Shown here: piece by piece, positions 41,770 through 44,737 of the stretch
Layout: each line of letters starts with the position of its first letter
Numbering within the stretch: position 1 is the first letter of the stretch
Source: Fimbriimonadales bacterium
GTDB lineage: Bacteria; Armatimonadota; Fimbriimonadia; Fimbriimonadales; Fimbriimonadaceae
Reading direction: 5' to 3'
Assembly (NCBI GenBank): GCA_026418055.1
Contig: JAOACB010000007.1
Location: 41,176 to 86,689 of the forward strand
Length of the DNA stretch: 45,514 nt
Translations under genes and position numbers: made by a program
The notes under the pieces: generated by a model
What the model saw: the letters and a program-made list of their open reading frames with translations, nothing else
Told to the model about the DNA's origin: nothing
Databases searched by the model: none

Positions 41770-43335
41770 TCACTCGCTCTTGTGGCAACTGGCGCAGCTC
41801 TCGCCGGTCTCGTCGTCCACGGACGACGAGGCGGTTTTGCCGTCGTGGCAGGTGCCGCACGCCTTGTGCCACGCCTCTTGGCCCTCGAGTTTCGGGCTGT
41901 GCTGGAAACCAAGGCCGAACGTGTTGGCGTGGCACTGCATGCAGTCCGGCTTCTCCTGCATGCCCACGTGCAGCTCGTGGCTGAAGATCACCTTGCCCAT
42001 CGAGCTCTCCGGCCCCGACAGCGTGAGGTCCTTCGGCAAGTGCGACAGTTCGAAGTCCGGCTGCACGTTGAGCGCCTCGGCCGCGGGGATCGGTTTGGCC
42101 TGCGCCTCGATCGCGGTGCGCGTTGGCGCGGCACGAACCAAGAGGACCAGCACGACGAAGAACACTGCGACTGCCGTGACCGCACCGCGGGGAAACCATC
42201 CCATCCCGGGCGTGGTGCCCGGCTCCAAGTACTCCGACTTCGCCAGTACGTTCAGGTGCCGCACCGCGAGCCCGAAGAGCAGGATGCCCACGGTGATGAT
42301 CATCATCGTGATCGCCACCTCGGACCACTTCGGGAAGTAGGTCTCGATGTTCCGCATGCCGGTCATGCTCACGTTGACTCGGTTGAGCACGAACCCGCCG
42401 ACGACCAGCAGCGCGTAGAAGAACAGGTTGCGCTCCTTGATCTTGTCACCGGAAGCCAAGATCAGCATCAGAGGCAGGATCGCTCCGAAGCCGATCTCCG
42501 CCCAGAACATCACCGACTGCTGCGAATACACGAACGCCAGCGGCAGCATGCCTCGGCCGATCAGGTCGGCGAAGCGCCACGTGACGTACACCGCCAGCAC
42601 CACGACCGTGACCCTGGCGATGCCCAGCAGAACGTCGTGCTCCAACCGCCTCGAGAAAACCTTGGAGCTGATGAAGGACTCGATGATGCTCATCGAGAGG
42701 CCGGCCGCGACGGCGCTCACGAAGAAGAAGGCCGGCAGCACGGGCGAGTACCACAGCCCGTGCAGCTTCTCCGGGACGATCAAAAACAGCGTGCCGAGGG
42801 ACGACTGGTGCAGCGTCGACAGCAGCACGCCGGCGATCACCAGCGGCAGGTAGATCGCCCGGATCGCCCGCAGGGGCCAGTGCCAGCCGAGCTTCTCGAA
42901 GACGAGAGGGCTGAACTCGAGCGCCAGAACCGTGGTGTAGAGCGTGACGCACCAGGCCACCTCGAACATCACGGAGTGCGGGTTCCACATGATCAGCGGG
43001 TGCCACAGGCGCAGAGGGCGACCGATGTCCACGACGAGGGCCGCGGTCACCAGCAGATACCCCAGGAACGCCGTGAGCAACGACGGTCTGCTGACCGGCT
43101 CGTACTTCTTGAGGTTCAGGACGTACACGGTGGCGGCGATGGTGAAGCCGCCGGCCGCCAAGCCGACTCCAACCAACACGTCGATGCCGACCCAGAAGCC
43201 CCAAGGGAACGTGTCGTGCAGGTTGGACGCGCCGCCAAGCCCCTGAGTGAACCGGATCCACAGCGCGTAGGCGCCGACCGCCAGAATCAGCGCCGCGAGC
43301 GCCCACCAGCGCGGAACCAAGGCCAGCCTCTTCAT
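41770..43335 (-). CDS. HybB/NrfD-type quinone membrane protein fused to a three-haem cytochrome c domain
   Basis: 521 residues. The first roughly 390 are a HybB-like NrfD/PsrC membrane protein with about ten helices (TFPWGFWVGIDVLVGVGLAAGGFTI and PLRLWHPLIMWNPHSVMFE are family phrases). A linker leads to a C-terminal domain with three CxxCH haem sites, at 465-469 (CMQCH), 493-497 (CGTCH) and 514-518 (CASCH), plus SHELH near 454-458 as a likely distal ligand, as in c7/c3-type cytochromes. The haem domain must be outside the cytoplasm. The ATG overlaps the HybA-like stop (ATGA). It probably passes electrons between menaquinol and c-type haems. No hydrogenase subunits are present. Confidence 0.9.
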   Translation of the reverse strand: MKRLALVPRWWALAALILAVGAYALWIRFTQGLGGASNLHDTFPWGFWVGIDVLVGVGLAAGGFTIAATVYVLNLKKYEPVSRPSLLTAFLGYLLVTAALVVDIGRPLRLWHPLIMWNPHSVMFEVAWCVTLYTTVLALEFSPLVFEKLGWHWPLRAIRAIYLPLVIAGVLLSTLHQSSLGTLFLIVPEKLHGLWYSPVLPAFFFVSAVAAGLSMSIIESFISSKVFSRRLEHDVLLGIARVTVVVLAVYVTWRFADLIGRGMLPLAFVYSQQSVMFWAEIGFGAILPLMLILASGDKIKERNLFFYALLVVGGFVLNRVNVSMTGMRNIETYFPKWSEVAITMMIITVGILLFGLAVRHLNVLAKSEYLEPGTTPGMGWFPRGAVTAVAVFFVVLVLLVRAAPTRTAIEAQAKPIPAAEALNVQPDFELSHLPKDLTLSGPESSMGKVIFSHELHVGMQEKPDCMQCHANTFGLGFQHSPKLEGQEAWHKACGTCHDGKTASSSVDDETGESCASCHKSE

Positions 43336-44090
43336 TGCCCTTTCTCCTCCCGCTTGCTCTCGGCCGCTTCCTTTGCCCGCTCCTCGGCCAGCTCCATGCG
43401 CCTATGCGTGATCCACCACAGACCGGCCAGCCCCACGCCGCCCACCGAAACGACGCTCGGCAGCTGCCGCAGCACGTTCCACGTCAGGTGGGGATAGGTC
43501 GTGTCCGTGCGGATCTGCTTGAATCCCAGTTGCTCGAACGGAACCGCCGTCAGGTAGAGGGCGCAGGTTCCACCGGCCTCGTGCTCGCCGTAGATGTGGT
43601 CCACGTAGCGCCCTGGGGCCTCGCGGATCCGCTGCTTGGCTTCCAACAGAAGGTCCTCCCGCTTCCCGTACTTCGCGGCGCCCGTCGGGCAGGCCTCCGT
43701 GCATGCCGGCTGCTCGCCTCTCTCGAGCCTCGGATAGCAGTGGATGCACTTGCGGACGCGTGGTTGCGTGCTGAACCACTCGTACTTCGGCACGTCGAAC
43801 GGGCACGCCATGATGCAGTACCGACAGCCGATGCAGCGCGTCTCGTCGTAGATGACGGCCTCCAGCTTGGTCTTCTGGAGCGCCGCGACCGGGCACACCG
43901 ACACGCACGTCGGATCGACGCAGTGGTTGCACTGCCGTTTGACGTTCACGCCGCCGTGCCGCTCGATGGTCGTCCATGTGACGGCCGACAGCTTGTCCAT
44001 CGAGCCTGGCGGCAGGTGGTTCTCCTGCTTGCAGGCCAAGCTGCAAGCCTCGCAACCGATGCATTTGGTGAGGTCGATGAGGAAGGCCAT
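43332..44090 (-). CDS. HybA-like ferredoxin with four [4Fe-4S] motifs and C-terminal membrane anchor
   Basis: 252 residues from ATG 44090. Sixteen or more cysteines sit in four ferredoxin-type clusters: CIGCEACSLAC at 10-20, CNHCVDPTCVSVC, CIGCRYCIMAC and CIHC...CTEAC. A single membrane helix lies at about 208-228, followed by a highly charged tail. This is the HybA/DmsB/NrfC class of electron-transfer subunit. Classical HybA has a twin-arginine signal; here the protein begins MAFLIDLTKC and an upstream in-frame start (44174) adds no Tat motif. It is coupled to the HybB-cytochrome fusion by a four-base overlap. Confidence 0.9.
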   Translation of the reverse strand: MAFLIDLTKCIGCEACSLACKQENHLPPGSMDKLSAVTWTTIERHGGVNVKRQCNHCVDPTCVSVCPVAALQKTKLEAVIYDETRCIGCRYCIMACPFDVPKYEWFSTQPRVRKCIHCYPRLERGEQPACTEACPTGAAKYGKREDLLLEAKQRIREAPGRYVDHIYGEHEAGGTCALYLTAVPFEQLGFKQIRTDTTYPHLTWNVLRQLPSVVSVGGVGLAGLWWITHRRMELAEERAKEAAESKREEKGQ

Positions 44091-44245
44091 CGCCGGTATC
44101 CCTACAGCCCAACTTTGGCAGATTCCGACCGGGCCTTTCGACCTATCGCCCGATCCATGTTCCATTTCGAGCAAGAAACGGAGCCTGTGGGCGCTTAGGG
44201 CGGCGCCGACGCAACCCAGTCGGCCGCTCCTGCGTGGAACCGAAC

Positions 44246-44737
44246 ATGGAAACCGTTCGGTACCGGCCGGGCGAGGTGCTCCAATGGCTGGAAGTCGGCG
44301 CGGTGCAGTTCCGCAGAAACGCCCGCGACAAGGGCTCGGAGGCGCTGCGGAGACACGAGGACGCTCCGGTCTCGGCCAACCTCCGAGCCGCAGCCGAGGC
44401 GGCCGTCGATCTCGGCAAGGGCGCCCTGGCGGAGCTGGCCCGTCTGAAGGCCGAGCGCACCGAGTACATCCTTGGCGAGCACAGCTTCGAAGCGGTGCAA
44501 GCGGGCCGGTTGCGCTCGATCCGCTACGACGCGGTGCAATCGATCGTCCAGAAGGGGGACACCTACCACCTCCACCTGGCCAACGGCAGGAGCCTGGCGA
44601 TCCGCCCTCCCGCGCACCTGCTCGTGGGCAGGCTCAAGGTTCCGGTGGGTTGGATCCGCAACGGTCTGCAGGTTCCGTACAGCGTGCTGGCGGACGAGCT
44701 CGCAGCGCGCTGTGGGGTAAACATCCAGCCGTCGTGA
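44246..44737 (+). CDS. Conserved-looking protein of unknown function, possible PH-like fold
   Basis: 163 residues from ATG 44246 (GGAA about seven bases before); GTG 44234 would add four residues. A helical N-terminal half (GSEALRRHEDAPVSANLRAAAEAAVDLG region) is followed by a strand-rich part (about 90-130: RLRSIRYDAVQSIVQKG, YHLHLANGRSLAIRP) that resembles bacterial PH-like domains, where a RIPYDxIxxI-type phrase is common. There are no membrane helices or catalytic motifs. I do not recognise the family. The stop overlaps the nadC start (GTGA), so it is coupled to NAD synthesis by position. The 143-base gap to hybA on the other strand holds no promoter I am sure of. Confidence 0.68.
   Translation: METVRYRPGEVLQWLEVGAVQFRRNARDKGSEALRRHEDAPVSANLRAAAEAAVDLGKGALAELARLKAERTEYILGEHSFEAVQAGRLRSIRYDAVQSIVQKGDTYHLHLANGRSLAIRPPAHLLVGRLKVPVGWIRNGLQVPYSVLADELAARCGVNIQPS

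Follow-up and report, generated by a model that had tools for sequence, protein, structure and literature searches.

What does a HybA-HybB pair do when its membrane subunit ends in a cytochrome, its iron-sulfur subunit lacks a twin-arginine (Tat) signal and no hydrogenase or reductase catalytic subunit adjoins it, and on which side of the membrane does the iron-sulfur subunit sit? These questions are raised by two genes on the minus strand of the window analysed here, i.e., the whole stretch of 45,514 nucleotides.

A HybB-type protein with a built-in cytochrome

The pair consists of a gene for a HybA/HmcB-like four-cluster Fe-S protein of 252 amino acids (43332..44090, minus strand) and, overlapping it by four bases, a gene for a HybB/HmcC-like NrfD protein of 521 amino acids joined to a trihaem cytochrome c7 (41770..43335, minus strand), the latter identified by Pfam and by homologues of the same architecture. 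PF03916 (NrfD) matches residues 39-326 with 69 bits against a cut-off of 25.8, and PF14522 (Cytochrome_C7) matches residues 449-519 (41779..41991, minus strand) with 36.9 bits against a cut-off of 24.8. The c7 domain is also recognized by TIGR04257 of NCBIfam (43.7 bits, cut-off 40), and its three CxxCH motifs begin at residues 465, 493 and 514. With two Pfam domains above cut-off in a single unbroken open reading frame, the first-pass annotation was right in placing the NrfD part and the three haems in one frame, and right that the two-gene unit contains no catalytic subunit, as none is encoded next to it. The pair is followed by aspS, and upstream lie a divergent gene for a 167-residue protein and then a nadC-like gene. 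Gene order is the same in a sister species (locus L002). The 167-residue protein (44234-44737) has no match in Pfam or NCBIfam, and its gene is retained in the sister species between the nadC-like gene and hybA. Simple promoter and terminator scans of positions 43900-44400 found nothing. In comparison with the sister species, dN/dS was 0.11 for hybA and 0.20 for the hybB fusion, so that both genes are under constraint.

Hydropathy over 96 homologues and the helices of an AlphaFold2 model delimit a ten-helix NrfD domain at residues 10-361 (42253..43308, minus strand). Ten helices and the PF03916 match place the protein in the NrfD/PsrC family. By the same two approaches an eleventh helix was located at residues 382-402 (42130..42192, minus strand), which would put the haem domain outside. 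The model of the fusion (mean pLDDT 77.5) has ten long helices followed by a helix at 383-402, and its c7 part is poorly modelled, with pLDDT mostly 40-60. ActC subunits of Alternative Complex III (ACIII) rank first in Foldseek, with a TM-score on the target of about 0.6. When functional residues of E. coli HybB (PMC8076601) were mapped by alignment onto the protein, the quinone-site and proton-path residues were recovered as D52, R83, Y93, D103, S121, E140 and H176. Residues defined by mutants in E. coli are kept (D52, R83, Y93, E140 and H176), and S121, D103 and D52 correspond to HybB S129, D109 and D58, i.e., the quinone-site serine and acidic residues. The Fe-S protein has 16 conserved cluster cysteines in four [4Fe-4S] motifs. 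Its C-terminal helix, delimited by AlphaFold2 and charge counts at residues 210-228 (43407..43463, minus strand), is followed by HRR, a positively charged tail resembling that of E. coli HybA; the helix spans residues 210-251 in the model. Superposition on FdnH (1kqf_B), tail helix included, covered 236 residues with a Z of 24.9 and an rmsd of 3.0. Note that Foldseek and VIA-align bear on folds, not on the face at which HybA docks.

The fusion recurs with 80% identity in the sister species (L002/L081) and with 44-52% identity in other lineages. Together with the dN/dS of 0.20, this recurrence argues that it is no accident of assembly. The closest match outside, again 80%, stems from a record titled 'uncultured Fimbriimonadaceae bacterium'. 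A search for NrfD proteins fused to multihaem cytochromes, which the first-pass annotation had proposed, thus returned the same architecture in several lineages. Such fusions, with 3 to 12 haem motifs, occur in Armatimonadota, KSB1, Myxococcota and Acidobacteriota. Three motifs are found in the protein studied here and in KSB1, Myxococcota, Acidobacteriota and others; further fused relatives carry 5, 6 or 12 in the same place. In four other armatimonadotal loci (L082:1477-3957, L083, L084 and L085) HybB is fused to 12 haem motifs. The L082 protein has four c7 matches and resembles a membrane-tethered nanowire cytochrome. Within the Armatimonadota, HybB relatives are rare (12 of 291 genomes), and in a tree of 94 HybB sequences the protein clusters with KSB1 bacteria (98% SH-aLRT). 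This combination suggests gene transfer.

The missing Tat signal and the side of the Fe-S subunit

As the first-pass annotation had stated, HybA has no Tat signal, and a corrected start does not restore one: the earliest upstream start, a TTG at 44174, adds 28 residues without an RR. A hidden upstream signal was thus rejected, as there is no RR and the sister species has an in-frame stop 17 codons upstream. The protein falls into a clade with tree support that spans about 60 loci and some nine phyla; a Tat signal is absent throughout. By record titles, some of which are doubtful for metagenome-assembled genomes, the phyla comprise Armatimonadota, KSB1, Myxococcota, Acidobacteriota, Bacteroidota, Ignavibacteriota, Calditrichota, Planctomycetota, Poribacteria and others. 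All 31 members of the sister clade have the Tat motif. The HybB tree shows the same division: 30 sequences with Tat-bearing HybA partners cluster together (support 99), as do 63 with signal-less partners (support 97), and the haem fusions, for which three changes on the tree are needed, are confined to the second group. This tree stems from a quick search in which some long branches meet, and its deep order is provisional. Four loci (L043, L044, L048 and L050) have two HybAB operons back to back, one with a Tat signal and a 13-haem cytochrome, the other without Tat.

In formate dehydrogenases it is the catalytic partner that carries the Tat signal, and one signal-less HybA has been described beside a Tat-bearing FeFe-hydrogenase (PMC10924467). 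A conserved Tat-bearing neighbour was sought in 67 signal-less loci and none was found. The FeFe-hydrogenase of this genome was rejected as carrier, as no Tat signal was seen at its start and most relatives have no such enzyme at all. With neither a signal of its own nor a Tat-bearing neighbour, a periplasmic Fe-S domain would need another export route. Near the end of contig C41 an Fe-S protein with a twin-arginine-like signal is encoded (L115:13709-14362, genome G000), a possible redox partner or carrier.

In principle, the Fe-S subunit could sit on either side of the membrane. It could remain in the cytoplasm with the haems outside, so that the complex would span the membrane as a link between Fe-S carriers of the cytoplasm and cytochromes outside. 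This arrangement is in line with the absence of Tat from about 60 HybA proteins of many phyla, set against its presence throughout the 31-member sister group, and with the lack of any Tat-bearing neighbour able to carry HybA. An inverted membrane subunit is expected in the case of SoeC, as its partner is cytoplasmic (PMC8076601). No such inversion is seen here. Loop charges, a rule of thumb, place the HybB N-terminus inside in 96 of 96 sequences, irrespective of whether the partner carries a Tat signal. The conserved quinone site and the outer loops would therefore lie opposite a cytoplasmic Fe-S domain, and it is the outer loops L1, L3 and L5 that are more conserved than the inner ones in the signal-less group. 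Lysine and arginine residues are more numerous after the HybA helix than before it in 59 of the 61 signal-less members, as in E. coli HybA; were the Fe-S domain cytoplasmic, these charges would fall outside. In addition, Y91 of HybA (43818..43820, minus strand) is invariant, both in 60 of 60 signal-less and in 31 of 31 Tat-bearing sequences. It aligns with Y113 of QrcC, which caps the quinone site as the sole Fe-S-subunit residue there and is indispensable to QrcABCD (PMC13059093). The alignment was checked with PsrB, where T. thermophilus has alanine at this position in agreement with PMC13059093. Finally, NrfD proteins are devoid of cofactors for electron transfer across the membrane (PMC8076601).

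Taken together, HybB orientation, outer loops, the residues kept, Y91, the charges of the HybA tail and the FdnH superposition favour the outside, and judged from these features the Fe-S subunit probably sits on the outer (P) side; a cytoplasmic location appears unlikely. Of the topology given in the first-pass annotation, the outer position of the haems is thus supported by eleven helices and the N-in charge bias, and the topology prediction that it had called for yielded a HybB in normal orientation. Its cytoplasmic ferredoxin, however, is not favoured by the uninverted HybB and the conserved outer loops, and is also opposed by the invariant tyrosine and the cytoplasmic-type charges after the HybA helix. 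With more reserve, we suggest that the Fe-S subunits of this widespread clade may either serve the outer quinone site without Tat or a recognisable carrier or lie in the cytoplasm on a non-inverted NrfD protein. If so, either option would break a rule of the NrfD family, and the signal-less clade poses a testable question about the export route of folded Fe-S proteins or the side on which an NrfD protein is served.

Hydrogenases, sensor kinases and the function of the pair

The genome does contain hydrogenase-type genes. Contig C41 encodes a NiFe hydrogenase large subunit, whose neighbours look soluble, and an FeFe-hydrogenase whose N-terminus is of the NuoG type; contig C83 encodes a complex-I-like subunit. 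Their presence would allow the pair to be an orphaned component of a hydrogenase whose other genes lie elsewhere in the genome, and hydrogenase genes matching only this pair are what the first-pass annotation had named as evidence against its reading. None of them, however, is an evident partner. Neighbours and domains look soluble or complex-I-like, no Tat signal was seen at the start of the FeFe enzyme, and in two relatives (draft genomes G209 and G226) the pair occurs without any match to a NiFe or FeFe hydrogenase above cut-off. We therefore consider the orphan explanation very unlikely.

A different function, sensing of the redox state rather than energy conservation, comes into view in the relatives. 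All 30 unfused signal-less loci with enough flank encode relatives of a histidine kinase, a sigma54-type response regulator and an archaemetzincin (M54) on the same strand, and 28 of the 30 also a membrane-anchored GcvH-like protein (examples: L011, L012, L030 and L043; domains were checked on examples). The kinases read have a CxxCH motif in the sensor part. Three of them (L008:9556-11244, L011:4343-6034 and L014:5492-6790) combine one CxxCH with a Cys-x4-Cys-His-x-His stretch further along that sensor domain, which may be a second haem site. In two loci a membrane anchor, a receiver and a GcvH-like domain form one protein encoded immediately before HybA (L004:5938-7083 and L003:5982-7163; checked by Pfam on L004). 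Inspection by eye of the GcvH-like proteins read did not find the lipoate-carrying lysine at its expected place. Tat-bearing relatives have the kinase in 25 of 26 and the GcvH-like gene in 21 of 26 cases, and HybB is mostly followed at once by a 13-haem cytochrome. As the GcvH-like gene accompanies Tat-bearing HybA too, the idea that it proves the Fe-S domain to be cytoplasmic was rejected. A GcvH-like partner at another site of the genome was likewise discarded; the single GcvH match looks canonical. A haem-bearing kinase beside most relatives could read the state of quinone or haem. Yet the pair described here has no GcvH-like, kinase, sigma54-type regulator or archaemetzincin neighbour, several other fused loci also lack the kinase set, and a kinase beside a respiratory complex may merely regulate that complex. 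A sensory rather than energy-conserving role is thus improbable.

We rather favour a two-gene menaquinone:c-type-cytochrome oxidoreductase, i.e., a minimal module of the Hmc/Nhc/Qrc type with the cytochrome built in. The compact conduit between quinone and cytochrome without hydrogenase or reductase subunit, as originally put forward, is thereby supported as a prediction. The pair combines intact quinone and proton-path residues of NrfD, a tethered trihaem c7 and four cluster motifs in the Fe-S subunit. QrcABCD draws its electrons from a cytochrome in the periplasm and its protons from the cytoplasm (PMC13059093), and an electron path linking c7, clusters and menaquinone is proposed by analogy. 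On the outer (P) face, c7 and the four clusters would line up as a chain ending above the quinone site. Electrons would enter or leave via c7 in exchange with other cytochromes, and the protons of the quinone chemistry would be exchanged with the cytoplasm through the NrfD helices, a path measured in QrcABCD. With less confidence, the Fe-S subunit may reach the P-side without a Tat signal of its own, via another carrier or route. Both directions, quinone reduction and quinol oxidation to c7, appear equally possible. A look for cytochrome c acceptors in the genome, another of the checks suggested at the outset, pointed to contig C80, where an ACIII-like gene set is followed by a cytochrome-oxidase-like gene; such acceptors are therefore likely. 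If our reading is correct, a quinone-linked module can have an extensible haem wire (3 to 12 haems) as part of one polypeptide, which would be an easy way of wiring quinones to cytochromes outside the membrane in phyla of which few members are in culture.

Relation to known systems

A literature search covering few subscription journals found no description of an NrfD-c7 fusion, of a broad signal-less HybA clade or of the kinase/archaemetzincin locus. The two-gene unit as such is not unique. Combinations of tail-anchored HybA, HybB and cytochromes away from hydrogenase loci have been described (PMC10924467), and these hydrogenase-free modules, along with the one signal-less HybA of the same study, partly anticipate our findings; the c7 fusion and the breadth of the signal-less clade appear undescribed. 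The published modules share with our pair HybA, HybB and a c-type cytochrome, but were chosen for their Tat signal and have separate cytochrome genes. Compared with Tat-dependent tail-anchored Fe-S proteins in general, the C-terminal helix and positive tail are present and the twin-arginine signal is absent.

The closest solved relatives of the haem domain are c7-type multihaem cytochromes such as PDB 3ov0, a Geobacter protein; there, no link to a quinone protein exists, whereas here the domain is tethered to one. E. coli hydrogenase-2 contains a homologous HybA-HybB pair with the functional residues conserved. The present pair differs by the absence of HybO/HybC and of a Tat signal and by the added haem domain, and the hydrogenase matches of the genome lie on other contigs. 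An Act gene set is likewise missing around the NrfD gene, the ACIII-like set being located separately on C80. The distinction from hydrogenase-2 and ACIII drawn in the first-pass annotation therefore holds.

Qrc and Nhc (QrcABCD, NhcABCD) resemble the pair in combining cytochrome c, a four-cluster Fe-S subunit and a ten-helix NrfD protein, and the serine and aspartate of the quinone site as well as the Fe-S tyrosine are kept. In Qrc, however, the hexahaem subunit is separate and QrcB is also present; here the unit comprises two genes only, without QrcA or QrcB neighbours, and the QrcD equivalog scores 129 of the 570 bits required. The best equivalogs in NCBIfam are HmcC (304 of 550 bits) and HmcB (246 of 420 bits), ahead of those for HybB (PRK10881, 276 of 450 bits) and HybA (PRK10882, 206 of 263 bits), all of them below cut-off. 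The pair differs from Hmc of Desulfovibrio in that its cytochrome is part of the NrfD protein, with 3 rather than 16 haems, no separate 16-haem HmcA and no HmcD/E/F-like genes are adjacent, and the N-terminal signal region is missing from the Fe-S protein, whose match to the HmcB profile begins at position 38. What it has in common with Hmc is an HmcB-like tail-anchored Fe-S protein encoded directly before an HmcC-like NrfD protein, together with a multihaem cytochrome.
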